Shown here: piece after piece, positions 7,175-22,357 of the stretch | Layout: each line of letters opens with the position of its first letter | Position numbering within the stretch: position 1 is the first letter of the stretch | NCBI GenBank assembly: GCA_030950365.1 | Contig: JAUZRQ010000007.1 | Coordinates: 1-54,685, forward strand | Direction: 5' to 3' | DNA: 54,685 nt | From: Candidatus Zhuqueibacterota bacterium | GTDB lineage: Bacteria; Zhuqueibacterota; Zhuqueibacteria; Zhuqueibacterales; Geothermadaptataceae | Made by a program: the position numbers and the translations under genes | The notes under the pieces: model-generated | What the model was told of the DNA's origin: nothing | Seen by the model: only the letters and a program-made list of their open reading frames with translations | The model's database searches: none

Positions 7175-7788
7175 CCGACAAACCTGCGATCGGACAACAT
7201 TGGGGGCGCATGTCAAATAGCAGTTTCAAAGCGCTGCCCATAAATGGGTGCGTGACTATTTGTTACGGCAGGCAGCCAGCCGGTCTGGTTTTGGCGCTGA
7301 ACCTTTGGGATGAGGGTATTCTGGAATCATTACAAAATAAATTGGCTTTTTTCTATTGTTTTTGCAGCAAAACCATTGTAGATTAAATTTGCTTAACATT
7401 TAGGCGGCTGTATCGCCGGCGGATGCATTCCACGGATTCCAGATGAATTCAATCTTCCGCAATATCCTTCCACATGTGCTTGGTTGTGGAGCCGGGAGGA
7501 GGAGATTGCATTGTTGAATGCGGCTTCATCGAACCTGGATGAAGGCAGCCGGATTGCCGTGGCACGAACGGCATCCTACGGAGGGGATAGTTACACAACG
7601 GGGGAGAGCCTGCCGCAACATGAGGGGGGGCTTGGCGCTTCATATTTCATTTTGATTTTTATTATGTTCTTGCGCGACATTTCCGAGGGGCTCGATGATC
7701 GGTTATGGCGAGCATGGGGCTCGCCAGTTCGGAAACGGTTCGATTCAGGAAGAATGATTCAAATCGGAACTATGGGAACGGAGGAACG
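7175..7788 (+). other. intergenic region, no supported gene
   Basis: The gap between the P60 lipoprotein and the M24 peptidase is relatively AT-rich to about 7400. An open frame at 7484-7804 (TTG start, overlapping the M24 start) has a short hydrophobic stretch but an unnatural composition; I do not call it. No clear terminator or promoter was found. Confidence 0.5.
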
Positions 7789-8979
7789 ATGGAGACTCAG
7801 TTGAAGCTGGATATCGGAGATGTTCAGGAATACCTGCGGAAGTCCGGAGTCGATGGCTGGTTGATTTACGATTTTATCGGTTTGAACAAGGTAGCCCAGG
7901 AGCTTTTCGTATTTACTGGACATTTGATTACGCGGCGATGGTTCTATTTTATCCCCGCTCAGGGTGAGCCAACGGCATTGGTGCATCGGATTGAACGGGC
8001 GAATTTTCCGGAGGTGCCTGGAGAGGTGATGCTGTATTCTGGGTGGCAGGAGCTGCATGCAGCTCTGAATACCATCCTCCAGGGGGCCCATCGCATCGCC
8101 ATGGAGTACTCACCCAAGAACGCCATCCCCACCAATTCGTTTGTGGACGCCGGAACCTTCGAGGTAGTGCGCGAATACGTCGATGAAATCGTGTCCTCGG
8201 CCAATCTGGTGCAATATTTCACCTGTCGTCTCAGGCAGGAGCAACTCGAATCGCACAAACGGGCCGCGCGCGTGCTGGACGAGGCACAACAGAAGGCATT
8301 CCAGTTCATCGAAGAGCGGCTGCGGCAGGGAAAGACCGTTACCGAGTACGAAGTCCAGCAGCTCATCATGCAACACATCCGAGAAAACGGCATGACCGCC
8401 ATGGCCGAAGCCATCGTGGCCGTAAACGAGTTCGCCAGCGATCCTCATTATGCGCCCACGCAGGACAAAACCAATGAAATCCGTAAAGGCGATTGCATTC
8501 TCATCGATCTGTGGGGAAAGGAAACGCACGCAAACGGCATTTATGCGGATATTACGCTTGTGGGCTTTGTGGGCGCCGAGCCGCCGGAAAAATATACGGA
8601 AATTTGGACCATCGCCCGCGATGCCCGCAATCTGGCCGTAGATTTCATGCGCGAACGGCATCAAAAAGGGCTGAGCATTCGTGGATACGAAGTGGATGAA
8701 GTGGTGCGCAAGTACATCAGCGACAGAGGCTATGGGGATTATTTCTTCCATCGCACCGGCCACAGCATCGATCAAAGCGATCACGGCAAAGCGGTTAATA
8801 TCGATAGTTTTGAAACGCGCGATTTGCGCGAACTGATACCCGGACTTCTTTTTTCCATCGAGCCGGGCATTTACCTGCCAGAGTTTGGCGTGCGCACGGA
8901 GATCGACGTGTACTTCGGCGAGAATGGGCCGGAAGTGTACACGCCGATTCAGGACGAGCTCATTTTAATGGATGTGTGA
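7789..8979 (+). CDS. M24 family Xaa-Pro type aminopeptidase
   Basis: I start at ATG 7789 (METQLKLDIG), where GGAGG stands 5 bases upstream; the open frame runs further 5' without family-like sequence. The 396-aa product has a creatinase N-terminal lobe (about 1-150) and a pita-bread M24 domain. Metal ligands are recognisable: Asp in LIDLWGK, Asp in YADITL, His in FHRTGHSIDQ, Glu in SIEPGIYLPEFG and Glu in RTEIDVYF. It should be a cytosolic dinuclear-metal enzyme removing residues before proline, or a relative acting on other amide bonds. It is the first gene of an operon with an RNA methyltransferase and two ABC permeases. Confidence 0.9.
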   Translation: METQLKLDIGDVQEYLRKSGVDGWLIYDFIGLNKVAQELFVFTGHLITRRWFYFIPAQGEPTALVHRIERANFPEVPGEVMLYSGWQELHAALNTILQGAHRIAMEYSPKNAIPTNSFVDAGTFEVVREYVDEIVSSANLVQYFTCRLRQEQLESHKRAARVLDEAQQKAFQFIEERLRQGKTVTEYEVQQLIMQHIRENGMTAMAEAIVAVNEFASDPHYAPTQDKTNEIRKGDCILIDLWGKETHANGIYADITLVGFVGAEPPEKYTEIWTIARDARNLAVDFMRERHQKGLSIRGYEVDEVVRKYISDRGYGDYFFHRTGHSIDQSDHGKAVNIDSFETRDLRELIPGLLFSIEPGIYLPEFGVRTEIDVYFGENGPEVYTPIQDELILMDV

Positions 8980-10409
8980 GCAACATGGCTGGCTTGAAAA
9001 AGGGCGCTGAGGTCGAAGTGGACATCGAAAGCCTGGCCTACGGGGCGGACGGCGTCGGCCGGGTGAACGGCATGGTGGTGTTCGTCCAGGGCGCCCTGCC
9101 GGGTCAGCGCGTGCGCGCCAAAATCACCCGCAAGAAAAAGTCCCACGCCTATGCCCGCATTCTGGACGTGCTGCGGCAAAGCCCGGATTACCAGAAACCA
9201 GAGTGCGTGTATTTCGGCGACTGCGGCGGCTGCGCGCTGCAGCATTTGAAATACGACAAACAGATCGAAATCAAGACCCGGCAGGTGCGGGAAGTGCTGC
9301 AGCACATCGGCGGTTTTGCCGATGTGCCGGTGCTTCCGGCGCTGCCCTCGCCGAGCCAGTTTTACTACCGCAACAAGATGGAATTCACCTTCAGCCCGCA
9401 CCGCTGGTTGACACGAAGAGAGGTGGAGTCCGGCCAGTCCTTCGAGCATCGGCATTTTGCGCTTGGCCTGCACGTGCGCGGCCGGTTCGATAAAACCCTG
9501 GCGCTGGAATCCTGCTTGCTGCAGAGCAAAGAGAGCGATGCCATCCGCAATTTTGTGGCGCGCTGGGCCGCCGAGTCCGGCTTGCCGGCCTACACCACGC
9601 GCGACCACAGCGGTTTCTGGCGCTTTCTGGTGATCCGCGAGGGCAAGCGCACCGGCGAACGGCTGGTGAACATCATCACCGCCGACGGCCGCGATGCGGG
9701 CCGGTCGGCCGTGCAGCGGCTGACTGTTGATTTGATCGAAACCATGCTGGAAATCACTACCGTGGTGCACACCATCAACCGCTCCAAAGCGCAGGTGGCC
9801 ACGGGCGAAGAAAGCGAGGTGCTGCACGGGCCCGGGTATATTCACGATCAAATCGGCGCGTTCAGGTTCCGCATTTCTCCCGAGTCGTTCTTCCAAACCA
9901 ACACCGAGGGCGCGGAGGTGCTGTATCAGACCGCACTGGACTTCGCGCAGCTTACCGGCAGCGAAACGCTGTATGATTTGTACTGCGGCGCCGGCACTAT
10001 CGGCATTTTCATGAGCCCCCACGCAAACCGGGTTGTTGGCGTGGAGATCGTTCCGGAGGCGGTGCAGGATGCGGAAACCAACGCCGGGCTGAATGGCGTC
10101 ACGAACTGCACGTTTGTGGTGGGTGATCTCAAAGAGCACGTGGGCGGAGAGGCTTCGCTGTTCGAGCGGCACGGCCATCCCGATGTGGTGGTAGTGGATC
10201 CGCCGCGCGCCGGCATTCATCCCCGGGTGGTGCAGGAAATCGTGCGCGAGGCCCCGCCGCGTATCGTGTATGTGTCCTGCAATCCCTCTACCTTCGCCCG
10301 CGATGCGCGGCTGTTTTGCGACGGTGGCTACCGGCTACTGAAAGTGCAGCCGGTGGACATGTTTCCGCACACGGCCCATATCGAAGTCGTCGGACTGTTC
10401 GAGCGATAA
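8976..10409 (+). CDS. rlmD: 23S rRNA (uracil-5-)-methyltransferase, RlmD/TrmA family
   Basis: The 477-aa product begins with a TRAM RNA-binding domain (VDIESLAYGADGVGRVNG), then carries iron-sulfur cysteines C77, C83 and C86 in CVYFGDCGGC plus a likely fourth in ALESCLLQ. The methyltransferase core has DLYCGAGTIGIF for AdoMet, VVVDPPRAGIHP, and YVSCNPSTFARD with the catalytic cysteine. These are hallmarks of RNA m5U methyltransferases with a 4Fe-4S cluster; RlmD (m5U1939) is the likely member, though the exact target base cannot be read from sequence. A GTG start at 8976 overlaps the previous stop by four bases (GTGA); an ATG at 8985 is an equal alternative. Confidence 0.88.
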   Translation: MSNMAGLKKGAEVEVDIESLAYGADGVGRVNGMVVFVQGALPGQRVRAKITRKKKSHAYARILDVLRQSPDYQKPECVYFGDCGGCALQHLKYDKQIEIKTRQVREVLQHIGGFADVPVLPALPSPSQFYYRNKMEFTFSPHRWLTRREVESGQSFEHRHFALGLHVRGRFDKTLALESCLLQSKESDAIRNFVARWAAESGLPAYTTRDHSGFWRFLVIREGKRTGERLVNIITADGRDAGRSAVQRLTVDLIETMLEITTVVHTINRSKAQVATGEESEVLHGPGYIHDQIGAFRFRISPESFFQTNTEGAEVLYQTALDFAQLTGSETLYDLYCGAGTIGIFMSPHANRVVGVEIVPEAVQDAETNAGLNGVTNCTFVVGDLKEHVGGEASLFERHGHPDVVVVDPPRAGIHPRVVQEIVREAPPRIVYVSCNPSTFARDARLFCDGGYRLLKVQPVDMFPHTAHIEVVGLFER

Positions 10410-10427
10410 CTAAATCCCATCAGATTC

Positions 10428-12380
10428 ATGCAACGACTCAGCCGCAACATCGCCCTGGTTTTGATCGCCGGCTATCCGCTGCTGTTTGCGGCCCTTCAAT
10501 GGCAAAACCATCACCGTTCCCGGTCTCTGCTTTTTCACCAGTTGCGCACTCGTGCCGATTTTCTTGCCCGCGTGCTGGCCGCGCAGCGCGATTCCCTTTC
10601 GAACATACCACTGGACTCCCTGCAGGCCTGGCGGCAGCAGTTTGGTGGTTTTGCCCAGGAGCTATCGGCGCGAGAGATCGCCTCCCGGCCGCCGGCCGAG
10701 CGGCCCTTCCTTCAGATCGCGCTGAAAGGTCGCCGCCCTGTGGACCTGGTTCGCATCGACGGCCGCGCCTACTTTCGCATCGGTGAAAAAATCGCCGCCG
10801 ACCGGCTGCGGCTCCTTTTCCTGCCATGGCAGCGCGCGTTGACCGCGGCGCTGCCGGACGTTCTTTCTGAAATTGAAGTATCCCTACTGTGGCCGGAAGG
10901 CAACCGCGGGGCGCCGGAAACGCTGCCGCGCTCGCTCTGGCAGCAGGTGTTTGAGCGAGAGGATATCTGGACCGGGGAGCTTACGGTGCGGGGCGCGCGC
11001 CGGGCCGTGGCCGTAGTGCCCATCAAAGATTTCGAGTTCTGGGACGTGAGCACGGCCGCGGTGCTCTGGCAGCGAACCCTGCGCGCTCCGATACCCGCGC
11101 CCTGGCCTGTTTGGCTGCCGCCCCTTGTGGCCCTCACCTGGCTACTGGCATTGAATCTGGCGCTGCTGCGCCGGGAGATGAAGCGCCTGGTAGCATCGTC
11201 AAAGACCGCTACACACGCTCCGCGCAGACCGGTATGGCCGTGGAGCCTGCTTGCGATGTCCGTCTGGCTGGCATGGGCTGCCATCGAATGGCAGACGGCG
11301 CGCGACCTGGCGCAGGCCGCCAGGCAGGCCCATGCCGAGATGCTGACCGCGGCTCGCGCTTATGCTGTGTCCATCCGTCTGGCGCCGGAGCTGCGCGCCG
11401 AGCTGTCGCATCTGTTCACCGTGGATGCCATCGTGTTCTGGAGCCTGTGGCTCGTGGCGGGCATTCTCTTTTTCGCCGCGCTGGCCACTGTCCGCCATCT
11501 TTCCAGGCCGGTGCATCTCAAAACCGCCCTGACGGGATTGGGCTTCATTCTGCCTTCGTTTTTGCATCTGCTGATTTTTTCGTTCATCCCCATTGCGTTT
11601 GCGTTTTACATCAGTTTTCACATCTGGAGTATTCTCAGTCCAGAGAAGCCGTTCATCGGGCTGGATAACTACCGAGAAGTATTTGCGAGCCGGGATTTCT
11701 GGAATAGCCTGAAAAACACCAGCCTGTACGTGCTGCATGTGCCGGTGGGGATGGCCGTTTCATTGATGTTGGCTCTAATAATGAACCGAAAGAACCTGCC
11801 CGGGCTGGGCCTGTTCCGCACGCTGTTTTATCTGCCCAGCATCACCAGTTTTGTGGCCATCGCCATCGTGTGGCAGTGGATTTACAACCCGGAATTCGGG
11901 CTGCTCAATTACGTGCTGTCGAAGATGCATCTCGGCCCGTATCCGTGGCTCAACAGTCCCAAAACTGCGCTGCTGTCGCTGATGCTCATGGCCATCTGGT
12001 TGCAAGCCGGATACCAGATGGTGATCTATCTGGCCGGATTGCAAAATATTCCGGAGTATCTGTACGAAGCAGCGAAAATTGATGGCGCCAATCGATGGCA
12101 GCTTTTCTGGCGCATCACCTTTCCCATGCTGAAACCGACCACGTTTTTCATTCTCGTCACCAGCCTGATCGGCAGTTTTCAGGTGTTCACGCAAATTTAT
12201 GTCATGACCGAGGGCGGTCCGCTAAAATCCACCGATGTGGTGGTGTACCACATTTACAAAAACGCCTGGGATTTTCTGCGCATGGGCTATGCCAGCGCCA
12301 TGAGTTTTGTGCTGTTTTTTATTATCATGGCGCTCACCCTGCTGCAGTTCCATTTCATGCGCCGGAGGGAGGCGTGGTGA
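10428..12380 (+). CDS. sugar-type ABC permease with long sensor-like N-terminal half
   Basis: The 650-aa product is twice the normal size of a MalF-type permease. Residues about 366-650 are the permease, with the EAA loop at 547-570 (YEAAKIDGANRWQLFWRITF). The first 360 residues contain TM1 (6-24), an extracytoplasmic segment (25-225), TM2 (226-246), a short basic loop, TM3 (270-288), a small extracytoplasmic helix hairpin and TM4 (332-354). The arrangement recalls the input half of a membrane receptor. The gene starts 18 bases after the methyltransferase and its stop overlaps the next permease (TGATG). No ATPase or binding protein is encoded nearby, so partners must lie elsewhere. Start: ATG 10428. 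Confidence 0.85.
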   Translation: MQRLSRNIALVLIAGYPLLFAALQWQNHHRSRSLLFHQLRTRADFLARVLAAQRDSLSNIPLDSLQAWRQQFGGFAQELSAREIASRPPAERPFLQIALKGRRPVDLVRIDGRAYFRIGEKIAADRLRLLFLPWQRALTAALPDVLSEIEVSLLWPEGNRGAPETLPRSLWQQVFEREDIWTGELTVRGARRAVAVVPIKDFEFWDVSTAAVLWQRTLRAPIPAPWPVWLPPLVALTWLLALNLALLRREMKRLVASSKTATHAPRRPVWPWSLLAMSVWLAWAAIEWQTARDLAQAARQAHAEMLTAARAYAVSIRLAPELRAELSHLFTVDAIVFWSLWLVAGILFFAALATVRHLSRPVHLKTALTGLGFILPSFLHLLIFSFIPIAFAFYISFHIWSILSPEKPFIGLDNYREVFASRDFWNSLKNTSLYVLHVPVGMAVSLMLALIMNRKNLPGLGLFRTLFYLPSITSFVAIAIVWQWIYNPEFGLLNYVLSKMHLGPYPWLNSPKTALLSLMLMAIWLQAGYQMVIYLAGLQNIPEYLYEAAKIDGANRWQLFWRITFPMLKPTTFFILVTSLIGSFQVFTQIYVMTEGGPLKSTDVVVYHIYKNAWDFLRMGYASAMSFVLFFIIMALTLLQFHFMRRREAW

Positions 12381-13231
12381 TGTGGCAGGGGCGGACATTC
12401 ACGTGGCGGTGGCCGGAGCGGCTTATATCAATGGCCGGCGTGGCCGTGTTGCTGCTGGCGGCATTCACCATGCTGGCGCCGTTTTTGTGGATGGTGCTCA
12501 CCAGCTTCATGGACGAGCTGGAGGTGTTCCAGTTTCCGCCGCGGTTGCTTCCCGAGCGCTGGCTGTGGCACAACTGGCGTGAGGCGCTGACCGCGTTACC
12601 GTTCGCCCGGTTTTTCTTGAATTCGCTGATCATGTCGCTGGGCATTACCGCCGGGCAGTTGCTGTTTTGCTCCATGGCCGGTTATGCGTTTGCGCGCATT
12701 CGTTTTCCGTTTCGCAACGCCATTTTCCTGGCGTTTCTATCCTTTCTCATGGTGCCGGTCATCGTACTGCTCATCCCGCGGTTTCTAATGGTCAACTTTT
12801 TCGGCTGGATCGATACCTTCTGGGCGCTAATCATTCCCGAAATGGTGTCGGTGTGGGGGATTTTCCTGATGCGGCAATTTTTCCTCGGCCTTCCGCGCGA
12901 TCTCGAAGATGCCGCTCGCATCGATGGCGCCAGCGAGTGGGCCATCTACTGGCGTATCGTGCTGCCGCTTTCCAAACCGGCCCTGGCCACGCTCGGCGTG
13001 TTTGCTTTCGTGGGAAGCTGGCAATCCTTTTTGTGGCCGCTCATCGCCACGCGCTCGCTGTACATGCGCACGATGGAGGTCGGCATCGCCTCGTTTCATA
13101 CCATTTACTCGGACAACTGGCCGTTGCAAATGGCCGCGGCCACCGCGGCCGTGCTGCCGCTGGTAGCGCTGTTCTTCTTTGCGCAGCGTTATTTCGTGCG
13201 CGGGATTGCTTTATCGGGCATGAAGGGATAA
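12380..13231 (+). CDS. sugar-type ABC permease, MalG/inner subunit
   Basis: The 283-aa product pairs with the preceding permease. The ATG at 12380 overlaps its stop in TGATG and has GGAGGGAGG upstream; the open frame runs far 5' but that part is only the shadow of the first permease. Six hydrophobic helices are visible, starting at MAGVAVLLLAAFTMLAPFLW. The EAA loop reads LEDAARIDGASEWAIYWRIV and contacts the transport ATPase in this family, and the protein ends SGMKG, as many MalG-like permeases do. Substrate cannot be told; carbohydrate import is the family norm. It is the last gene of the operon. Confidence 0.9.
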   Translation: MWQGRTFTWRWPERLISMAGVAVLLLAAFTMLAPFLWMVLTSFMDELEVFQFPPRLLPERWLWHNWREALTALPFARFFLNSLIMSLGITAGQLLFCSMAGYAFARIRFPFRNAIFLAFLSFLMVPVIVLLIPRFLMVNFFGWIDTFWALIIPEMVSVWGIFLMRQFFLGLPRDLEDAARIDGASEWAIYWRIVLPLSKPALATLGVFAFVGSWQSFLWPLIATRSLYMRTMEVGIASFHTIYSDNWPLQMAAATAAVLPLVALFFFAQRYFVRGIALSGMKG

Positions 13232-13362
13232 AGAGAGGCCAGCCCAGATCGAACTGATGAACACAAGTGGCTCCGCGCAATATTTCAGTGTCATCCGGTG
13301 TGCTACGAAGCGAACAATAGCCAAAGGGTTGCAATCCCAACGTGGCAATTCATCGCTGATCG

Positions 13363-13387
13363 CCGTCCCAAATTGCATTTGGGCCGG
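13363..13387. repeat. 25-bp palindrome, copy 1
   Basis: The unit reads CCGTCCCAAAT-TGC-ATTTGGGCCGG: inverted arms around a 3-base centre, one mismatch. It is the first of three copies in 325 bases. Confidence 0.85.
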
Positions 13388-13467
13388 AGGAGAATAGTAG
13401 CACAAGCTTCCAGCTTGTCTGCCGGGAGCGCATCCACGAAGAATCACAAATCCATGCTTTTTGAACT

Positions 13468-13492
13468 CCGTCTCAAATTGGATTTGGGACGG
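13468..13492. repeat. 25-bp palindrome, copy 2
   Basis: The unit reads CCGTCTCAAAT-TGG-ATTTGGGACGG, with the same arms as the copy at 13363 and one mismatch in the stem. Confidence 0.85.
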
Positions 13493-13662
13493 AACGCATT
13501 GGGAAAAGCTGCGCTTCTCATTCTCTCGCCGGGGCGCAGAGGGTGCAGGGAAAGGCGGCTCACGCAAAGTTGCAACACGTTTCCAGAAGCTGCGCTTTCC
13601 CGTATTGCCCACGGTATGTCGTCATGCCCATTTTTCGAAGCAAAGCTTCTTTTTCGTTATTT

Positions 13663-13687
13663 CCGTCCCAGGTGAAACTTGGGACGG
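13663..13687. repeat. 25-bp palindrome, copy 3
   Basis: The unit begins CCGTCCCAGG and ends CTTGGGACGG. The outer CCGTCCCA/TGGGACGG arms are intact; the inner part has diverged. It abuts the 30-base tandem duplication. Confidence 0.85.
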
Positions 13688-13742
13688 AGGGGGAAATCGC
13701 CAGAAACCATGTGACGGAGGAGGAAATCGCCAGAAAGCGGTC
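13683..13742. repeat. 30-bp tandem duplication
   Basis: A 24-base block starting GACGGAGGGGGAAATCGCC recurs 30 bases later (13683-13706 and 13713-13736) with one difference. It begins inside the third palindrome, suggesting slippage or repair-associated duplication there. Confidence 0.8.
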
Positions 13743-13953
13743 GTCAGGGACGGCCTTTCGTCGGTGGATGAAATATTGTTCATCGGTTATACGCGGTGCC
13801 TGACAGCGGCAATGAAGTCCAGTTTGACGAGGGAAAAGGCAGAGGTAACGCATGGTAAGTGGCTATTACGCCACAACCGGGAAACCCTGTAACAGAGGTT
13901 GGCCGAAAGCGAAATATTACATCTTCTTTCCTACTCTACTGCAATCAGGGTTT

Positions 13954-14379
13954 TTATTTAATCAGCACTCTGGTCATCACTTTCAGTTCCGTGCGTTCCA
14001 TCCAGTCGGTGTGCTTCCAGAAAGCGAAGCCTTCTTCATTGTCATTCATGACGAAAATGTGGCATTTTTCGATGTTCAGGTCGCGCAGGCGCTGGAGGCA
14101 GGCATCCACCAACGCCCGGCCGATGCCGTGATGCCTATGGGGCGGATCCACGGCCAGATGATGAATGTAGCCGCGGCGACCTTCGTGGCCGCACATCACC
14201 GCGCCGACGATCCGGTCGTCCATCAGGGCGACGAAGCTCAAATCGGGATTGCGATTCAGAAACCGGGCGATGGCCGCGCGCGTATCCGATAGGCCCAATA
14301 CAATGCCTTCGCAGCGCTGCCACAGCCGGTACACTGCGTCATAGTCCTCGATGGTCATTGTACGAAGTCGAACGTCCAT
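13954..14379 (-). CDS. GNAT family N-acetyltransferase
   Basis: The 141-aa product is a single GNAT domain. It starts MDVRLRTMTIEDYDAV, has the acetyl-CoA loop in VDPPHRHHGIGRALVDACL (R/QxxGxG/A form) and ends the fold with the FVMNDNEEGFAFWKHTDW segment typical of RimI/YpeA-like proteins. It would transfer acetyl from acetyl-CoA to an amine of unknown identity in the cytosol. GGGAG lies 7 bases before the ATG. It follows the alpha/beta hydrolase gene by 17 bases on the same strand, so the two are probably co-transcribed. Confidence 0.9.
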   Translation of the reverse strand: MDVRLRTMTIEDYDAVYRLWQRCEGIVLGLSDTRAAIARFLNRNPDLSFVALMDDRIVGAVMCGHEGRRGYIHHLAVDPPHRHHGIGRALVDACLQRLRDLNIEKCHIFVMNDNEEGFAFWKHTDWMERTELKVMTRVLIK

Positions 14380-14396
14380 GCCAATCTCCCAGAAAG

Positions 14397-15584
14397 TTAT
14401 TGCATCACCGCGGCGAGAAATCGCTCAATGGCATAGGTGCTGATTTGTCCGCTCGGTCCGGCCAGCCGGAAATCGCAGCCGTGGGTGGCGTACGGCAGTT
14501 CGATGAACACGTGCCGCACCCGCTGTTCGGCCAGCTTTGCCGCCAGTTGGCGACTCTGCTGGATGCGCACCAGTTCATCGCGCGTGCCGTGGATGAGCAG
14601 GGTGGGCGGCGTCAGTGGATTGACGAAATGGATGGGCGAGGCCTGCCGGTATGGCTCCGACAATTCGTCCGGACTGCCACCGATAAAATCCCGCAGCACT
14701 TTGTGCGTGTTGATAACGCGCGGATTGGCGGGATGATTCCAGCCATACACCAGATCAGGCGGACCGTAAAACGACACCACACCGCGGATGGCCGGATCGG
14801 CTGCCGTGTATCCGGCCAGTAGCGCCAGATGCGCGCCGGCGGAGCGCCCCAGCAGCACCAGCCGCTGCGGATCGATGTTGAGTGTGTCCGCATGTTCTTG
14901 CACAAAACGAACGGCATCGCGAACATCCTCGATCTGGGCCGGAAATTTCCACCGCGGTGCCAGCCGGTAGGTGATGGCGGCGACGACATAGCCACGGCCG
15001 GCCAGATACTCATTCAATTCATAAAGCTGCCGCGTGCTGCCCGATCGCCAGGCCCCGCCGTGGATGACCACCACGCAAGGAAACGGTCCCTGCCCCTGCG
15101 GCGGCCGGTACACATCCATGGCCAGCGATTGCCCCGCCACGGTTTTATACACAAATCGCTCAGGGGGAATGTCGGGGCGGGATATGCCGGTGAATAAATC
15201 CACAATCGATAGCGGTGCTGTGCGACCATAAGCGGTCTCGGCTTCCGGATTGTGGAACTCTCCGAATGCTCGGGTGATTTGATCAGATAGGTTAGCAGCG
15301 ACCGGCAACGCCCGGAACAGCGGGGTGACGAACAATACCGCGGCGATGGCCGGAAGCAGAGCAAACGCACGCTTGCGGGCGTTTGCGCGAAAAAGAAGAT
15401 AGGCGACCAGCAGCGACAGCAGAGCGAAGCCGTGGCCGTATTCGGTGACCAGAATTGCCAGAATCCACAGTTCGTTGCTTGGGGCTTTGAAAAGCGTCAG
15501 CAGGGAGATCAAAAAAAGCAGGATCCCCATAATCAGCATTGCAGCATTGCCGGATTTCCGTAGCGAATTTTTGCCCTTTGCCAT
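14397..15584 (-). CDS. membrane-anchored alpha/beta hydrolase (esterase/lipase-like)
   Basis: The N-terminal 110 residues contain three hydrophobic helices (AAMLIMGILLFLISLLTLF, LWILAILVTE through LLVAYLLF, and FALLPAIAAVLFVTPLF). The rest is a BD-FAE/HSL-like esterase: oxyanion-hole HGGAWRSG, nucleophile elbow GRSAGAHLAL, acid in HGTRDELV and histidine in YATHGCDF. The catalytic domain probably faces the periplasm, but topology is not certain. I start at ATG 15584 (MAKGKNSLRK; 395 aa); an in-frame codon at 15641 would add 19 residues without domain content. Substrate unknown; carboxylester hydrolysis is the family reaction. It precedes the GNAT gene. Confidence 0.85.
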   Translation of the reverse strand: MAKGKNSLRKSGNAAMLIMGILLFLISLLTLFKAPSNELWILAILVTEYGHGFALLSLLVAYLLFRANARKRAFALLPAIAAVLFVTPLFRALPVAANLSDQITRAFGEFHNPEAETAYGRTAPLSIVDLFTGISRPDIPPERFVYKTVAGQSLAMDVYRPPQGQGPFPCVVVIHGGAWRSGSTRQLYELNEYLAGRGYVVAAITYRLAPRWKFPAQIEDVRDAVRFVQEHADTLNIDPQRLVLLGRSAGAHLALLAGYTAADPAIRGVVSFYGPPDLVYGWNHPANPRVINTHKVLRDFIGGSPDELSEPYRQASPIHFVNPLTPPTLLIHGTRDELVRIQQSRQLAAKLAEQRVRHVFIELPYATHGCDFRLAGPSGQISTYAIERFLAAVMQ

Positions 15585-15680
15585 GTTCGGGAGTCTCCAT
15601 GATTCGGATTTTAGTACATCAAAAAGGTAAAAAGATTCCAAGGACTCGCAAAATGAATCCAGACGGACGGAGAAAAAGAA

Positions 15681-15713
15681 AAACGCCAGGCACCTCGAAG
15701 GTGCCTGGCGTTT
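15681..15713 (-). terminator. intrinsic terminator of the GWxTD gene
   Basis: A perfect 15-bp stem (15681-15695 with 15699-15713; core ACGCCAGGCACCT) has loop CGA. Read leftward it is followed by TTTTTCTTTTTC. It lies 38 bases past the GWxTD stop. Confidence 0.9.
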
Positions 15714-15751
15714 GATTCGTGAAAGTTGATGTCTGTTTTCGGGATTGTTTG

Positions 15752-17389
15752 CTACCAGTCAATTGGCTGTTTAACAATCCCCAACCTTGGGGCGTTCCGG
15801 TCCTCAATGCGGAGCGCCAGAATATATCGCCCGCGCGGCAGTTCCAGGTCGACGGTCTCCGTCAACCACTTCAAAGCTTTGGCTTCCTTGCGTGTGTCAA
15901 ATGACCGCTGATGCAGCGCTTCATCACGCAGGACCTCGCGGTAGTCCAGATCAAAAACGACCAGCCGCCGCAAATAGTCGATCCGCCAGCGGCTGCCATC
16001 CTGGCGGATTAGTGCCAGTCGCTTGCGCGGCACGTCGATGCGCACCTCGAACCGATTATCTGAGATCGGCCGGGGGACAAGGCGGATGCCCTTGATGCGT
16101 TTGATCCCCGGCAATGGATCATAAACCATCAGATGATTGTAAATATAATCCACCTCGATGGCGCCCGGCCCACCGACGTGGATGAACGCATACAGCCCGT
16201 CGGGATAATAGCCATTGCCGTAAATGTTGGTCACGTACCGGTTCACGCCAAAGCTCACACCTTCCCGGGAATAGTACCAGACATCCACGTTCAGGGCCAC
16301 CGGCTCGGTGTAATCCGGCTCGCCCAGCTTCACCAGGAGTTCGCCGCGGCTATCCCACGGGCTCCAGCTCCAGCCACTGCGCAGATACTGATTGCGCAAA
16401 TAGCGAAAATGGCGATAATTCCACTCCTCGCCGTACTCCGCCCGCGCTTTGATCACCCGACGTATGAATTCCTCTTTGAATTCGTTTTCCGGCGTAGTCG
16501 GTGTGGGATCGTACGCCTTCCAGAAAATGCGCCGCCATTCCTGCCGATCGTAAGGATCACCCAGCGCCAGATATTGCTCGAACTCATCCTGTGGAACGAT
16601 GTGAAATAGACCGTAGTCCACCAATTCTTCGAGACTCCACTCGTGATCGTCGGCATAATAGCGTTCATACAGGGTTTCGTATAGCCGATACCGCCGCGTT
16701 TTGTAGAGCATGAAATCCTCTCGCCAGCTTTTTTTGCGCTCGACGCGGGCGACTTTGCCGGCGCGGGTCTGAAACTGAAGCAGCACCTGACGCGCGCGTT
16801 GGCTGTCCGGATGGGCCGGCACCGGACCGTTGCGAACGGTTTCCAGGGCAAGGGTTGCGCGCTGCCGCAGCCAGGGATCGTCCGCATCGGTAAAATCTTG
16901 CACCTGTTCCACGGCGGTGGAATCCCCCAGTTCGGCCAGGCTCAGCGCCGCTTCGGCGCGGATGCGCGCATCGTCATGGTGCAAGAGGCCGGTGAGAAAT
17001 CGCTTGTATTGAGGCCGGCCGGACAGATAGAGCTTCTGTGCAATGCGGATCTGATGCGCCAGTGCGTTGTCGGCCCATTCGCTGTCCGGGAATCGCTGGC
17101 GCAGCTCAGCGAACTGCTGGAAAGCGGTCAGGTCGCGGTCCCGCGCTTCCTGAATATAGGCCTGCCAGAAGACTGCGTCATCGGCAAGGTCGCTGTTGGG
17201 AAATTGCGATAGCAGCCGCCGAAGATGTTTTTCGGCCTTTTCGAATTTCTGGCGGGCAATGTCCTTGCGGGCTTTGTTCAGGAGTTTTTGTGCCTGCGGA
17301 GGAGTGGAGGCGAGCAAAGATGCGGTAGAAAACATGACAAGAGCGGCCAGCACGGCAAAGACGGTCCGAAAGGTTTTCTTTGCAGTCAT
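15752..17389 (-). CDS. secreted GWxTD-domain protein with N-terminal TPR-like repeats
   Basis: Start at ATG 17389 gives a clear signal peptide (MTAKKTFRTVFAVLAALVMF..SLLA); in-frame starts at 17410 and 17443 only lengthen its front. Residues about 25-130 form TPR-like helices (LNKARKDIARQKFEKAEKHL, FPNSDLADDAVFW). A HEAT-like stretch follows (DARIRAEAALSLAELGD, DDPWLRQRATLALE). The GWxTD region carries EWRRIFWKAYDPTP and DSRGELLVKLGEPDY, the family hallmark. GWxTD proteins are found in FCB and acidobacterial genomes, with no established biochemical role. It is monocistronic, with its own terminator. Periplasmic or surface location is inferred. Confidence 0.85.
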   Translation of the reverse strand: MTAKKTFRTVFAVLAALVMFSTASLLASTPPQAQKLLNKARKDIARQKFEKAEKHLRRLLSQFPNSDLADDAVFWQAYIQEARDRDLTAFQQFAELRQRFPDSEWADNALAHQIRIAQKLYLSGRPQYKRFLTGLLHHDDARIRAEAALSLAELGDSTAVEQVQDFTDADDPWLRQRATLALETVRNGPVPAHPDSQRARQVLLQFQTRAGKVARVERKKSWREDFMLYKTRRYRLYETLYERYYADDHEWSLEELVDYGLFHIVPQDEFEQYLALGDPYDRQEWRRIFWKAYDPTPTTPENEFKEEFIRRVIKARAEYGEEWNYRHFRYLRNQYLRSGWSWSPWDSRGELLVKLGEPDYTEPVALNVDVWYYSREGVSFGVNRYVTNIYGNGYYPDGLYAFIHVGGPGAIEVDYIYNHLMVYDPLPGIKRIKGIRLVPRPISDNRFEVRIDVPRKRLALIRQDGSRWRIDYLRRLVVFDLDYREVLRDEALHQRSFDTRKEAKALKWLTETVDLELPRGRYILALRIEDRNAPRLGIVKQPIDW

Positions 17390-17659
17390 GGCAACATTCT
17401 CGTTTTGCATGGTGGAAAGGTGGCCCGATATTTCCCGAAGCACCTGCTCGGATTAGCAGCATTGGCATGTTGTGCCGGGCGACATCGATACACATGAAGG
17501 AATTCAGGCAGGATTGGATTGCCTGCCACAGGAGCAAAGCGCCTGTCTGCTTATTTATATGGGATCATACGCGATAGGTTCCCGCATCCGGTGGACGTGC
17601 ACTTTTAGACACGCGACCGGCCGCAGGAAATAGCCTCGTGCATCCATGGCTGGTTCGCA

Positions 17660-18904
17660 TTAAGCCCGGGCCGGATCCTTTGCCGGCAATCGCCACATCA
17701 TCACCGCGCCGCTGAAACAGACCAGCGCCGCAAAGCCGAAGCCGGCCTGTGGCGATACCGCCGTCCATAGTAAGCTCACCATTGTGCTGGACACAAAATC
17801 GCCCAAACCGTTGAGCGTGGCCAGCACTCCGAACCCCGTAGTCTGGATTTCTTCGGGAACCATTTCGGCGGCAATGGCCTTTTCCAGTGCATCTTCCACC
17901 GCGATGAACAGGCCTGCAAGCACGAACAATCCCGCCAGAAAGGCATAGCTTGCCGGCGAAAACAGAAAGCCGATGTTCATCAGCACGGCCAGGCCATAGC
18001 CAAGGGCCAGCAATTTGCGTTTGTTCCAGCGATCGCCCAGCGCCCCCACCGGGATGGACGCTGCGGCATACACGATGTTGTGGATCACGTACAGGCTCAT
18101 GGCCAGTTGCGCGGCTTTGGCGGCGGAATACGACTCGGTGAAAATCTGCGTGGCCCGCAAAATGAGCAGGGTGTGGGCAAAATCACCCAGTCCAAATAGT
18201 GCCACCGCAATCAAAAAGCGGCGATAGGGCTTCGGAAATTGGGTTAGACGGATGCTGAATTTGAGCGAAGGGTTGGGTGGAAATTTTCGGGCGCGCACGC
18301 CGAACATGAACAGGAAGGCCGCAGCCAGTCCGGGGAGCAGGGTAAAGGCAAAAATCTCCCGGTGGCTGAAGACGCCCACCAGCAGCATCGCCAGAAGCGG
18401 ACCCAGAATAGCCCCGGCCGTATCCAGCGCACGGTCAAAGCCGAAGGCCTTGCCGTAATGGGCCGGTTCGGTGCTATCGGCCAGAATGCGATCCCGCGCG
18501 GGCGACCGCATGCCGCGTCCAAACCAGGCAATGGTTCGCATGAACAGCACGTGCCACCAGGCCGTGGCAAGCGCCAGCGCGCCCTTGAGAAAGCCGGTCA
18601 GAAAATAGCCGGTCACAGCCACCTTTTTGTGTTTGCCAGTACGGTCGCAATACCAGCCCGACCATAGCTTGCTGAAGCTGGCCAGAGCATCCGACACGCC
18701 TTCGATGATTCCCAGCGCCCAGGGAGCCGCGCCGATGGCGGCCAAAAACGCCGGCAGAATTGTCGTGGCCGTTTCGTGCCCAAGGTCACTAAAAAAACTG
18801 ACCAGCCCAATGACCAAAACATTGCGGCTGAGCCATCTAAATTTAAGAATGCGCACGATTCCGTTCCTTATATATGGATTGTCGATTCTTTCTAAATTGG
18901 CCAT
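17660..18904 (-). CDS. major facilitator superfamily transporter
   Basis: The product (414 aa from ATG 18904; a TTG at 18913 is possible) has about twelve hydrophobic helices in two halves. The first half holds an MFS-type loop (SGWYCDRTGKHKKVAV) and RGMRSPARDRILADST; the second repeats the loop as GALGDRWNKRKLLALG. The family moves small solutes across the inner membrane by proton coupling. The RGxRxPxRDxxLADS sequence marks a subgroup of uncharacterised exporters, so the substrate is unknown. The gene stands alone, 270 bases from the next leftward gene. Confidence 0.88.
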   Translation of the reverse strand: MANLERIDNPYIRNGIVRILKFRWLSRNVLVIGLVSFFSDLGHETATTILPAFLAAIGAAPWALGIIEGVSDALASFSKLWSGWYCDRTGKHKKVAVTGYFLTGFLKGALALATAWWHVLFMRTIAWFGRGMRSPARDRILADSTEPAHYGKAFGFDRALDTAGAILGPLLAMLLVGVFSHREIFAFTLLPGLAAAFLFMFGVRARKFPPNPSLKFSIRLTQFPKPYRRFLIAVALFGLGDFAHTLLILRATQIFTESYSAAKAAQLAMSLYVIHNIVYAAASIPVGALGDRWNKRKLLALGYGLAVLMNIGFLFSPASYAFLAGLFVLAGLFIAVEDALEKAIAAEMVPEEIQTTGFGVLATLNGLGDFVSSTMVSLLWTAVSPQAGFGFAALVCFSGAVMMWRLPAKDPARA

Positions 18905-19030
18905 TTCCCCCAAATTTAATTAGTCTTTCTGATGCCTCAAAATGAAATCGACTGAAATTTCTTTTTAAAAAAGCGGATTCGATTGGCAAGCCGTGTTGAG
19001 CATCTGTCGCAATGGAATGCAGAGTAATCC

Positions 19031-19058
19031 TTGACTGTGTCAATTATTTTGCTATATT
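19031..19058 (+). promoter_or_regulatory. promoter upstream of the 27-aa ORF and cytochrome genes
   Basis: TTGACT at 19031-19036 and TATATT at 19053-19058 are separated by 16 bases. The strand switch from the leftward MFS gene and the ribosome binding site at 19073-19077 support its use. Confidence 0.65.
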
Positions 19059-19082
19059 TTTAGAGGTTTAAAAGGAGCCGCA

Positions 19083-19166
19083 ATGCTCACTTCCGGATGG
19101 AAGGGTGCACTCGAGGATGAGAAGCCATTCCATCTGAATCCCTTCAAACTCTTTGCGGGCGATTGA
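19083..19166 (+). CDS. 27-aa small ORF, possible leader peptide
   Basis: An ATG at 19083 stands 5 bases after AGGAG (19073-19077) and about 25 bases after a promoter -10 box. It opens a frame of 27 codons beginning MLTSGWKGALEDEK and ending KLFAGD before TGA at 19164. It has no signal peptide or transmembrane segment. It is 92 bases ahead of the pentaheme cytochrome gene, so it may be a leader peptide or the first small gene of that transcript. No family recognised. The signals are strong but the length makes chance occurrence possible. Confidence 0.5.
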   Translation: MLTSGWKGALEDEKPFHLNPFKLFAGD

Positions 19167-19258
19167 AATACCTCTTTACCGAAATGTTGGTTTATGCTGG
19201 CAAAGGATAGGTCTATTCATTGCAGGATAGAAAAACACCCATTCTAAGGAGGACTGTT

Positions 19259-20638
19259 ATGTTCACGCTTACCATCCTGAGACGATGGTCCATGCTGTTT
19301 GGTCTGGCGACAATCGCATGGTTGCCGATATCGCTGTTTGCCCAGGGTGAGCCGGCAGGCGACGAACTATTGGGCACGGGCAAATATTCGGATTTCGAAA
19401 AGCCAGAAGCCTGCGGCACCTGCCACGTGGATATCTACATGCAGTGGCAGCAGGCGATGATGTCGCAGGCCTATACGCATCCGTGGGATGAAATCGAATA
19501 CTTCAAACTGGCGGTACCGCATGCCGAAAAAGAGCCCAAGGTGGCTGGCGTGAAGGCGGGCTGCAATGGCTGTCATGCCCCCACGGCGTTCATTGCCGGC
19601 GACGTGCCACCGCCACCACCATCGGCCAACTCCCGCGCCAACGAAAGTGTTTCCTGCGATGTGTGCCACACCATCACCGGCTTCAAAGGCGAAGTGCCAT
19701 TTAATTACAATTATACCATCAAACCCGGTCGGGTGAAATACGGCAACCGTCCCGGGCTCAAGTCGCCGCATCATGACACCAAAATGAGCGATTTCATCCG
19801 CACCACCGAATTTTGCGGCACCTGCCATAACGAAAAAAGTCCGTTCGGCGTGTGGGTAAAAGCCACGCAACTGGAATGGAAAGAAGGACCGTATGCCAAA
19901 GAGGGGGTGCGATGCCAGGATTGCCACATGCCGGCTGCGCCGGGCCGCAGCGCCAAGATGGCCGAACCGCAAAAGGATGTGCGGCAACATCTGTTTCATG
20001 GTGCGCATTCGCCGAGTAAGCTGCGCGGCGCCGTGGAATTGCGCGCGCATCCGGATCGCCGGGAAGCCGAGCCGGGCGAGGACATCCGCATCACGGTGCA
20101 GGCCTTCAATCACAAAGCCGGCCACAAAATTCCCAGCGGTAGCGCCGAGGAACGCCAGCTCTGGATGACCGTGTTTGCCTACGATAGCGAGGGCAACAAG
20201 TACCATCTTCCGGTGGATAAAAAAGGCTTCGAAGGTGAAGAATACACGATTTCATCCAAAACGGCATTGGCCTATCAGGATATCGGTGAAATTCTGGGCA
20301 TCCCCGATTTCAAGGGATTGGAACGGGATGCGCTCCCGTATGAAGGTGACCGCATTTTCCGACTGCCGTACTTCGACCCCAAAGGCCGCATGACCATCGC
20401 GCAGTGGAATACTGCATCGCTGGGCGTGGATTACCGCATCGGGCCGCGGGAAACCAAAATCGAAACCTATACCTGGACTCTCCCGGATGACCTACCGCCG
20501 GGCAAGGTCAAGATCGTGGTGGAGATGTGGTACCGGCGGCTGGTCAAATCGGTGGGCGAGTATCTGGGCGTACCGGAAGAAGAAATGAAAGCAGAGCTCA
20601 TCAATCGCACCGAGACCTGGTTCGAGGTGCTGGACTGA
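19259..20638 (+). CDS. secreted pentaheme c-type cytochrome (c552/4-like)
   Basis: ATG 19259 follows AAGGAGG and begins a signal peptide ending near SLFAQG; an in-frame TTG at 19220 is upstream of it. The 459-aa product has five heme-attachment sites: CGTCH (52-56), CNGCH (102-106), CDVCH (133-137), CGTCH (186-190) and CQDCH (219-223), plus HG/GH motifs that could supply distal ligands. A beta-rich C-terminal domain (about 255-455) contains FNHKAGHKIPSG, seen in multiheme cytochromes of the c554 type. It should act in electron transfer in the periplasm or at the surface. The neighbouring barrel protein carries a further CxxCH, suggesting a shared route. Confidence 0.9.
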   Translation: MFTLTILRRWSMLFGLATIAWLPISLFAQGEPAGDELLGTGKYSDFEKPEACGTCHVDIYMQWQQAMMSQAYTHPWDEIEYFKLAVPHAEKEPKVAGVKAGCNGCHAPTAFIAGDVPPPPPSANSRANESVSCDVCHTITGFKGEVPFNYNYTIKPGRVKYGNRPGLKSPHHDTKMSDFIRTTEFCGTCHNEKSPFGVWVKATQLEWKEGPYAKEGVRCQDCHMPAAPGRSAKMAEPQKDVRQHLFHGAHSPSKLRGAVELRAHPDRREAEPGEDIRITVQAFNHKAGHKIPSGSAEERQLWMTVFAYDSEGNKYHLPVDKKGFEGEEYTISSKTALAYQDIGEILGIPDFKGLERDALPYEGDRIFRLPYFDPKGRMTIAQWNTASLGVDYRIGPRETKIETYTWTLPDDLPPGKVKIVVEMWYRRLVKSVGEYLGVPEEEMKAELINRTETWFEVLD

Positions 20639-20686
20639 ATCGAAAAATCATGAATCGACATTCATTCGAGACCATGAGGTGATACG

Positions 20687-21847
20687 ATGGCAAAAAAAGG
20701 CTGGATTTATGCTGTTTTGATGGTATTGAGTGCAAGTTTGTTGGTGGATGAGGCATCGGCCATTCCGGCGTTCGCTCGCAAATACAGGTTTTCCTGCTCT
20801 ACCTGCCATGTCTCCGTGCCCAAATTGAAGGACTATGGTGAGGAATTCGCAGCCAATGGCTTTATGCTGCCGAAGGATCAGGAACCCACGCGCGCTTATG
20901 TGCGAACCGGCGATGATGAATTGCTACTGCAGCGACAGTTGCCCATCGCCATCCGGTTCGATATCTGGGCGCAGCTCGCCGACCGCGAAACCGCCAAAAG
21001 CGATTTCCAGTTTCCGTATGGCATCAAGCTGCTAAGCGGTGGTCCGATTTCCCGGCATGTATCCTATTATTTTTATTTCTATATCGATGAGCGGGGTGAA
21101 GTAGCCGGCATTGAAGATGCTTATGTGCATTTCAACAATCTTGGTGGCAGCAATTTCGATATTATGGCCGGTCAGTTCCAGGTCAGCGATCCGCTGTTCA
21201 AGCGCGAGCTGCGGCTGACGCTGGAGGATTATTTGATTTATAAGGTCCGTGGGCGCTGGGCGACGGCCAATCTGACGTATGACCGTGGCGTGATACTAAC
21301 CTATGGTTTCGGTTTTGGGCTGGACCTGTTCGCCGAGATCATTAATGGCAATGGTATTGGGAAAGCCGAAAACCGGCTGTTTGATAACGACAATTACAAA
21401 AACGTGGCCTTTCGCGCCTCGCAGAGCCTGGGCGCGCTGCGGGTCGGCGGCTTCCTGTACAGGGGTAAGGAAAAAATCGAAAACGGTACCACCACCATCC
21501 GCATGCTTGGGCCGGATTTCACGCTTTCATTGCCAAAGTTGGAAATCAATGGACAATATCTTTACCGCAAAGATACGGCCATTATGGTCGGTGGCGTGGA
21601 TGGCGAAAACACAATCAAAGGTGGATTCGTCGAAGCCATTTTCATGCCCAACGGCGACCGTTCGCGCTGGTTCCTCACTGGCCTGTACAACTGGATCGAT
21701 TCCGACTATGATCCGCTGGATTATCAAACTTTGACCCTGAGTTTGAGCCATCTGGCAGCAAGGAACATGCGTTTGGTCATCGAATGGACGCGTGATCTGC
21801 AACATAAACGTTCTCGCCTTTCTTTGGGCATGGTATCCGCTTTTTAG
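20687..21847 (+). CDS. outer-membrane beta-barrel protein with N-terminal heme motif
   Basis: The 386-aa product has a signal peptide ending near DEASA, then IPAFARKYRF and CSTCH (37-41), a c-type heme site, followed by VPKLKDYGEEFAANGF. From about residue 65 to the end the sequence alternates like a porin (YYFYFYIDERGE, FRASQSLGALRVGGFLYRG, RWFLTGLYNWIDSD) and ends RSRLSLGMVSAF with terminal Phe. This layout, a monoheme plug fused to a barrel, recurs in respiratory bacteria without a standard name. It lies 48 bases after the pentaheme cytochrome. Together they could carry electrons across the outer membrane; this is inference. Confidence 0.8.
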   Translation: MAKKGWIYAVLMVLSASLLVDEASAIPAFARKYRFSCSTCHVSVPKLKDYGEEFAANGFMLPKDQEPTRAYVRTGDDELLLQRQLPIAIRFDIWAQLADRETAKSDFQFPYGIKLLSGGPISRHVSYYFYFYIDERGEVAGIEDAYVHFNNLGGSNFDIMAGQFQVSDPLFKRELRLTLEDYLIYKVRGRWATANLTYDRGVILTYGFGFGLDLFAEIINGNGIGKAENRLFDNDNYKNVAFRASQSLGALRVGGFLYRGKEKIENGTTTIRMLGPDFTLSLPKLEINGQYLYRKDTAIMVGGVDGENTIKGGFVEAIFMPNGDRSRWFLTGLYNWIDSDYDPLDYQTLTLSLSHLAARNMRLVIEWTRDLQHKRSRLSLGMVSAF

Positions 21848-22280: not shown

Positions 22281-22353
22281 GCGAATGTAGCTCAGTTGGT
22301 AGAGCACCGGCTTCCCAAGCCGGGTGTCGCGGGTTCGAATCCCGTCATTCGCT
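22281..22353 (+). tRNA. tRNA-Gly (anticodon CCC)
   Basis: The acceptor stem GCGAATG pairs with CATTCGC, with discriminator T as usual for bacterial tRNA-Gly. The D arm is GCTCAGTTGGTAGAGC, the anticodon arm CCGGC-TTCCCAA-GCCGG, and the T arm GCGGG-TTCGAAT-CCCGT. CCA is not encoded. It reads GGG codons. A terminator follows at once. Confidence 0.97.
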
Positions 22354-22357
22354 CTTC

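Follow-up and report, generated by a model that had tools for sequence, protein, structure and literature searches.

Layout and surroundings of the locus

The window, i.e., the whole stretch of DNA that was analyzed, is a complete contig of 54,685 bases from a 4.98-Mb genome that is 95% complete. On its forward strand lies a pair of genes for two predicted heme proteins (Table 1). The first-pass annotation had described a secreted protein with five CXXCH sites, followed after 48 bases by a barrel protein with CSTCH at residues 37–41, and this description was confirmed from the open reading frames. Its left coordinate, 19031, falls upstream of the gene; the most likely start of the pentaheme gene is the ATG at 19259, which has AGGAGG immediately 5', while an in-frame TTG is present at 19220 and the stop is at 20638. 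Sequences resembling ribosome-binding sites precede both the pentaheme and the barrel gene. The shared strand, the 48-base gap and the close pairing in most homologous loci are consistent with one operon.

Table 1. Features of the gene pair, in window coordinates.
Feature	Position	Strand	Description
Pentaheme c-type cytochrome gene	19259..20638	+	459 aa, five CXXCH, signal-like N-terminus
Pentaheme domains	19259..20638	+	PHC/ExtKL-like, predicted T. tepidum c552 fold, then C-terminal Ig-like beta-sandwich
Intergenic gap	20639..20686	+	48 bases; GAGGTGAT, ribosome-binding-site-like stretch ahead of barrel ATG
Cyc2-type fused cytochrome-porin gene (predicted)	20687..21847	+	386 aa; monoheme N-terminus and 16-strand outer-membrane barrel
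Cyc2 signature	20759..20827	+	AIPAFARKY...CSTCH...PKL, barrel residues 25-47; motif definition from PMC8406198

Genes for an MFS transporter and for a GWxTD-domain protein lie upstream, on the opposite strand. Downstream follow a tRNA-Gly gene, an open reading frame of unassigned family and a gene for a CsgG-domain protein. The tRNA-Gly(CCC) gene lies at 22281-22354, about 430 bases 3' of the barrel gene, where the GC content falls to about 45%. No third component of the pair was evident among these neighbors, and the scanned open reading frames flanking the pair gave no cytochrome match that could represent an adjacent outer-surface multiheme lipoprotein. The earlier statement that no terminal partner is adjacent stands for the window; in RSWS12-type relatives, genes for bd-like proteins closely follow the pair. 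Another contig of the window's genome (L151, G000:C74, positions 1235-2557) encodes a second pentaheme protein of 441 aa, which is distantly related (about 31% identity). No further barrel of the same compact subfamily was found in this genome.

Sequence features and structure models of the two proteins

Members of the Cyc2 family carry AXPXFAR[Q/K][T/Y] before the CXXCH and PXL after it; the published pipeline applied a minimum length of 365 aa, and a 16-strand porin was modeled on OprO and OprP, which served as templates for Cyc2-PV1 (Keffer et al. 2021; PMC8406198). Residues 25-47 of the barrel protein read AIPAFARKYRFSCSTCHVSVPKL. AIPAFARKY-RFS-CSTCH (residues 25-41) matches the first motif, and PXL is found four residues past the CXXCH, in CSTCH-VSV-PKL. 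CSTCH, at residues 37-41, is the sole CXXCH of the protein and is N-terminal, and the length of 386 aa exceeds the published minimum. The two Cys and the His of the heme motif were invariant in 72 aligned barrels, at a mean column identity of 51%, which argues against a chance occurrence.

The AlphaFold2 model of the barrel, built with 72 sequences, comprised 16 long strands (mean pLDDT 80.8, pTM 0.75). Its heme-bearing N-terminus was modeled at low confidence, in a prediction that includes no heme. In a VIA-align comparison, OprO (Z 25.9) and OprP (Z 25.8) were tied at the top with Omp32. By hhalign, the barrel matched a profile of Cyc2-like proteins with 99.9% probability (E 3.8e-36, 349 columns), significant along the whole barrel; this profile comprised proteins of Caballeronia, of Methylocystis and of related genomes within the window's phylum, biochemically proven Cyc2 proteins not being among them. 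Sequence searches of Pfam and NCBIfam returned nothing useful (no Pfam match), and those of the PDB, made with the barrel and with the heme segment alone, gave chance-level matches only. From the published motif, the predicted fold and the indirect homology, the barrel is a putative Cyc2-type fused cytochrome-porin. Membership in MtrAB/PioAB was rejected, since the barrel carries an invariant CXXCH and thus is not a heme-free porin, and since a Pfam match was lacking; MtrB_PioB (PF11854) gave no match in the phylum search, in which the controls were equally silent. When the phylum was searched with the barrel, its closest relative was found at L002 (G043:C2; 61% identity), where the adjacent pentaheme gene is split between frames, either because the gene is broken or through an error in the draft sequence.

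Signal-peptide cleavage of the barrel was predicted at A25/I26, and AXA-like residues occupy positions -3/-1 in most of the 74 homologues. If cleavage occurs before x-P-x-F-A-R, the first heme Cys becomes residue 12 in all 74 barrels; this cut is favored because 72 of the 74 have a small residue at -1. Apart from the heme motif, no further His or Met was conserved among the 74 barrels. Cytochrome f ligates its heme with its N-terminal amine. The N-terminus of that protein is YPIFAQQ (PDB entries 1CTM and 1HCZ), comparable to the x-P-x-F-A of the predicted mature barrel (window positions 20759-20815). By analogy, and as a guess, the amine at the mature N-terminus may serve as the second ligand of the heme in Cyc2-type barrels.

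The pentaheme protein gave Pfam matches to Cytochrome_C554, Cytochrome_C7 and NNT, and its structure was modeled with a pLDDT of 88.6. The model superposed best on Thermochromatium tepidum cytochrome c552 (5ze8; Z 26.3 over 340 residues, the next match scoring 10.5), which was also retrieved by profile search (E 2.2e-12). As in the PHCs, an Ig-like domain comes after the five c-heme motifs, and the modeled fold is that of c552. In a 2025 study, the PHCs of cable bacteria were grouped with Geobacter ExtKL, and their structures were noted to resemble both an archaeal cytochrome nanowire and T. tepidum c552 (PMC11976967). Judged by sequence and modeled fold, the predicted pentaheme protein belongs with the PHC/ExtKL cytochromes. 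The ExtKL model NF040886 scored 60.1 bits, under its curated equivalog cut-off of 250 bits, and an ExtKL equivalog was therefore rejected; the open reading frame is uninterrupted, with no in-frame TGA for selenocysteine.

In the heme domain, five His outside the CXXCH sites are invariant (H74, H88, H172, H244 and H250), enough for bis-His ligation of all five hemes. Such a supply would suit electron transfer better than catalysis. NrfA (PF02335) or another reductase was likewise rejected, given a score of 19.2 bits against a cut-off of 24.1 bits and the bis-His pattern. All heme sites were kept in the homologues except for one site that is a CX3CH variant in 39 of 80 (L061-L140). In the aligned rows, this variant is the first site, e.g., CGSSCH.

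Conservation of the pair and its relation to known systems

A survey of one genome per species across 84,980 species yielded 389 loci encoding relatives of the pentaheme protein, of which the best 80 were analyzed. A barrel gene was found downstream in 74 of these best 80 of 389, in 73 directly and in one (L064) about 3.2 kb away. Apart from this outlier, the spacing was nearly always within about 250 bases. Contig ends explain four of the six unpaired loci; at the other two, L065 and L082, the barrel is absent in the sequence available. The CXXCH was kept in all 74 downstream barrels. No third gene was conserved around the pair at the best 80 of 389 loci, and in the complete Ignavibacteria genome CP054675 the pair stands alone. 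Among 82 genomes of the window's phylum, 51 had both genes and 5 only one of them. The distances of the two partners correlated (Mantel r 0.74, 0/2000 permutations, species phylogeny uncontrolled). By record title, the hosts include KSB1, Calditrichota, Bacteroidetes/Ignavibacteria, Latescibacterota, Krumholzibacteriota and Zixibacteria, as well as Aminicenantes and Thermoanaerobaculum (Acidobacteriota). For an empty-site comparison, the genes flanking the pair in the window were sought in the nearest genomes and were absent there.

The barrels next to pentaheme genes form a compact subfamily of about 385-410 aa with roughly 48% mean identity. Longer Cyc2-like proteins of relatives (410-512 aa) had no pentaheme gene within the short stretches examined. 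In one relative, the gene immediately 3' of that for a 512-aa Cyc2-like protein encodes a cytochrome with two CXXCH, a different type of partner (L141:1297-3500). Since the longer relatives lack a nearby pentaheme gene and one has a diheme gene, the pentaheme pairing appears specific to the compact subfamily.

The window's barrel shares with A. ferrooxidans Cyc2, Mariprofundus Cyc2-PV1 and Leptospirillum Cyt572 the signature, the single heme motif, secretion, the 16-strand OprO/OprP-like porin and a length of at least 365 aa. It differs in belonging to a compact subfamily located beside a pentaheme gene, whereas the proteobacterial homologues analyzed here adjoin HiPIP and cytochrome c genes; moreover, carriers of the compact subfamily include genomes without a recognized O2 reductase. 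The pentaheme protein shares five c-heme motifs and the Ig-like beta-sandwich with Geobacter ExtKL, the PHCs of cable bacteria and T. tepidum c552. These known proteins are encoded with the heme-free porin ExtI or with no porin, whereas that of the window is encoded with a heme-bearing barrel, and ExtKL differs from it further in the equivalog score and the in-frame TGA. Like MtrAB/PioAB and the Geobacter Pcc systems, the pair combines a co-encoded porin and a periplasmic multiheme cytochrome. In those systems, the porins are heme-free and sheath a separate multiheme cytochrome, whereas the window's barrel has its own heme motif; unlike in the Geobacter-type Pcc, no extracellular multiheme protein adjoins the pair.

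The first-pass annotation had proposed an electron route across the outer membrane, which a fold without a barrel or a CXXCH not conserved in homologues would have contradicted, and had suggested a search for the gene pair across FCB genomes. The model, with its 16 long strands, is a barrel, and the CXXCH is invariant in the alignment and present in every downstream barrel; the pair was found in several phyla. The route is still the best reading of the pair, but a heme-bearing barrel has a precedent in Cyc2, whose consensus motif is present here. The contrast drawn with MtrAB/Pcc was correct but omitted Cyc2, the nearest known kind.

Homologues of Cyc2 from Zixibacteria and Ignavibacteriales were reported in 2021 (PMC8478452), and those from KSB1, Calditrichota and other phyla in 2022 (PMC9769843). 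A heme-bearing barrel of this kind was thus already on record. Isolate names suggest that L061, L062, L076 and L077 (Dive96) and L113 (DeMMO3) come from these studies. A pentaheme partner of Cyc2 was not found described in a literature search that left subscription papers and preprints mostly outside, and the fixed pairing of a Cyc2-type barrel with a pentaheme protein seems to be the new element.

Proposed electron conduit and alternative readings

Computation showed the anatomy of the locus, the Cyc2 motif, homology of the barrel to Cyc2-like proteins over its full length, the PHC fold of the pentaheme protein and the conserved pairing; the pair probably constitutes a minimal outer-membrane electron conduit encoded by a stand-alone two-gene operon. 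Electrons would pass between an inner-membrane carrier, the pentaheme protein, the barrel heme and the cell exterior, in either direction. The pentaheme protein would act as dedicated periplasmic partner in contact with the barrel, its heme chain relaying electrons to or from inner-membrane carriers. With heme attached at its CXXCH, the N-terminal segment of the barrel would lie at or in the pore of the 16-strand barrel and provide the step through the membrane, although one heme may be unable to span the membrane unaided.

With regard to direction, outward flow, with Fe(III) or another cell as acceptor, or bidirectional flow is favored, weakly to moderately, over obligate Fe(II) oxidation. 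Among 53 barrel-bearing genomes of the window's phylum, 15 had no COX1 or cytochrome bd match of at least 100 bits, and only 2 of these 15 encode NrfA. Aerobic iron oxidation is therefore unlikely as a general role, although incompleteness of the metagenome-assembled genomes (MAGs) may cause the absence of oxidases. The association of the pair with COX1 absence was a trend only (Fisher p 0.057, kinship uncorrected), and it was taken to mean that oxygen respiration is not required rather than as a correlation. The publication on the nearest solved pentaheme cytochrome, cited in PMC11976967, calls it low-potential in its title, and the potential of Cyc2-PV1 is +208 mV (PMC8406198). Should the two proteins of the pair have similar values, electrons would flow from the pentaheme protein to the barrel. 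Thermoanaerobaculum aquaticum and Melioribacter, both related to MAGs that carry the pair, are reported to reduce Fe(III) (PMC6137239). As a counterpoint, the cited characterized Cyc2 proteins oxidize Fe(II); a barrel acting in this way would pass electrons inward. With the heme-copper and bd oxidases encoded in the window's own genome, electrons could run inward to oxygen in that organism. A more far-reaching version, in which a distinct and widespread conduit combines a Cyc2-type barrel, perhaps with an amine-ligated heme, with an obligate ExtKL-type pentaheme protein and exports electrons mainly in anaerobes, is put forward only tentatively.

Classical iron oxidation by Cyc2, with the barrel heme receiving electrons from dissolved Fe(II) and the pentaheme protein replacing Cyc1/rusticyanin on the way to oxygen or nitrate respiration, is rather unlikely. 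The motif and fold of the barrel fit it, genes for a probable periplasmic relay also lie beside other Cyc2-like genes (in Caballeronia those for HiPIP and cytochrome c, in Methylocystis those for cytochromes c), and earlier metagenome studies list the Cyc2 homologues of KSB1, Calditrichota, Zixibacteria and Ignavibacteriales as putative iron oxidases (PMC9769843, PMC8478452). It is at odds with the carriers lacking strong oxidase matches and, mostly, NrfA; and a low-potential pentaheme protein, as judged from relatives, would be a poor acceptor from a heme near +200 mV. An oxyanion system resembling Geobacter ExtI/ExtKL, with the barrel serving chiefly as an OprO/OprP-like anion channel, its heme an accessory, and the pentaheme protein reducing or handling incoming selenite, tellurite or similar ions, is improbable. 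OprO and OprP were among the tied best structural matches of the barrel, the pentaheme protein resembles ExtKL (60 bits with NF040886), and normal selenite and tellurite reduction needs the porin ExtI (PMC5877670). Yet ExtI has no heme motif (PMC5877670), whereas the CXXCH of the barrel is invariant; the score is under the ExtKL cut-off, no TGA for selenocysteine interrupts the frame, and, given the five additional invariant His, no heme is evidently left open for catalysis.

A role in oxygen or peroxide defense, with the pair supplying or draining electrons for envelope detoxification in anaerobes, is very improbable, since the genomic setting that points to it occurs at only about 6 of the 80 loci and most pairs, including those of the window and the complete Ignavibacteria genome, stand alone. 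At L069, the pair lies amid genes for a FUR-family regulator, rubredoxin reductase, rubrerythrin-like proteins and c-heme bd-like proteins, and rubrerythrin-like genes are located directly 3' of the pair in L078, L095, L098 and L106.

For the preferred reading as a conduit, the consequences concern the use of Cyc2 homologues as marker genes for iron oxidation, as which they were counted in surveys of KSB1, Calditrichota, Zixibacteria and Ignavibacteriales. If the subfamily comes with a pentaheme protein and in genomes without recognized O2 reductases, the Cyc2 marker may have another meaning there; if the more tentative version with electron export is true, many Cyc2 calls in candidate phyla, at present taken as signs of iron oxidation, would instead stand for export of electrons. 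The pair would also be a compact two-gene conduit suited to a heterologous host, and it gives a fused cytochrome-porin a concrete partner in the periplasm.

NapC/NrfH-type proteins were patchy among carriers, so their co-occurrence names no inner-membrane partner. In L069 (positions 7535-21225), an RSWS12-type contig from the same class as the window, the pair is surrounded by genes for the FUR regulator, four rubrerythrin-like proteins and a rubredoxin-NAD reductase. Just 3' of it are the genes for two cytochrome bd-like proteins, which carry c-type heme motifs at their C-termini. Matches to bd-like proteins near the pair were also found in two genomes related to L069. This setting suggests a link to oxygen defense or iron handling in some lineages, not in general, and the bd-like c-heme proteins are a possible inner-membrane partner in RSWS12-type genomes.
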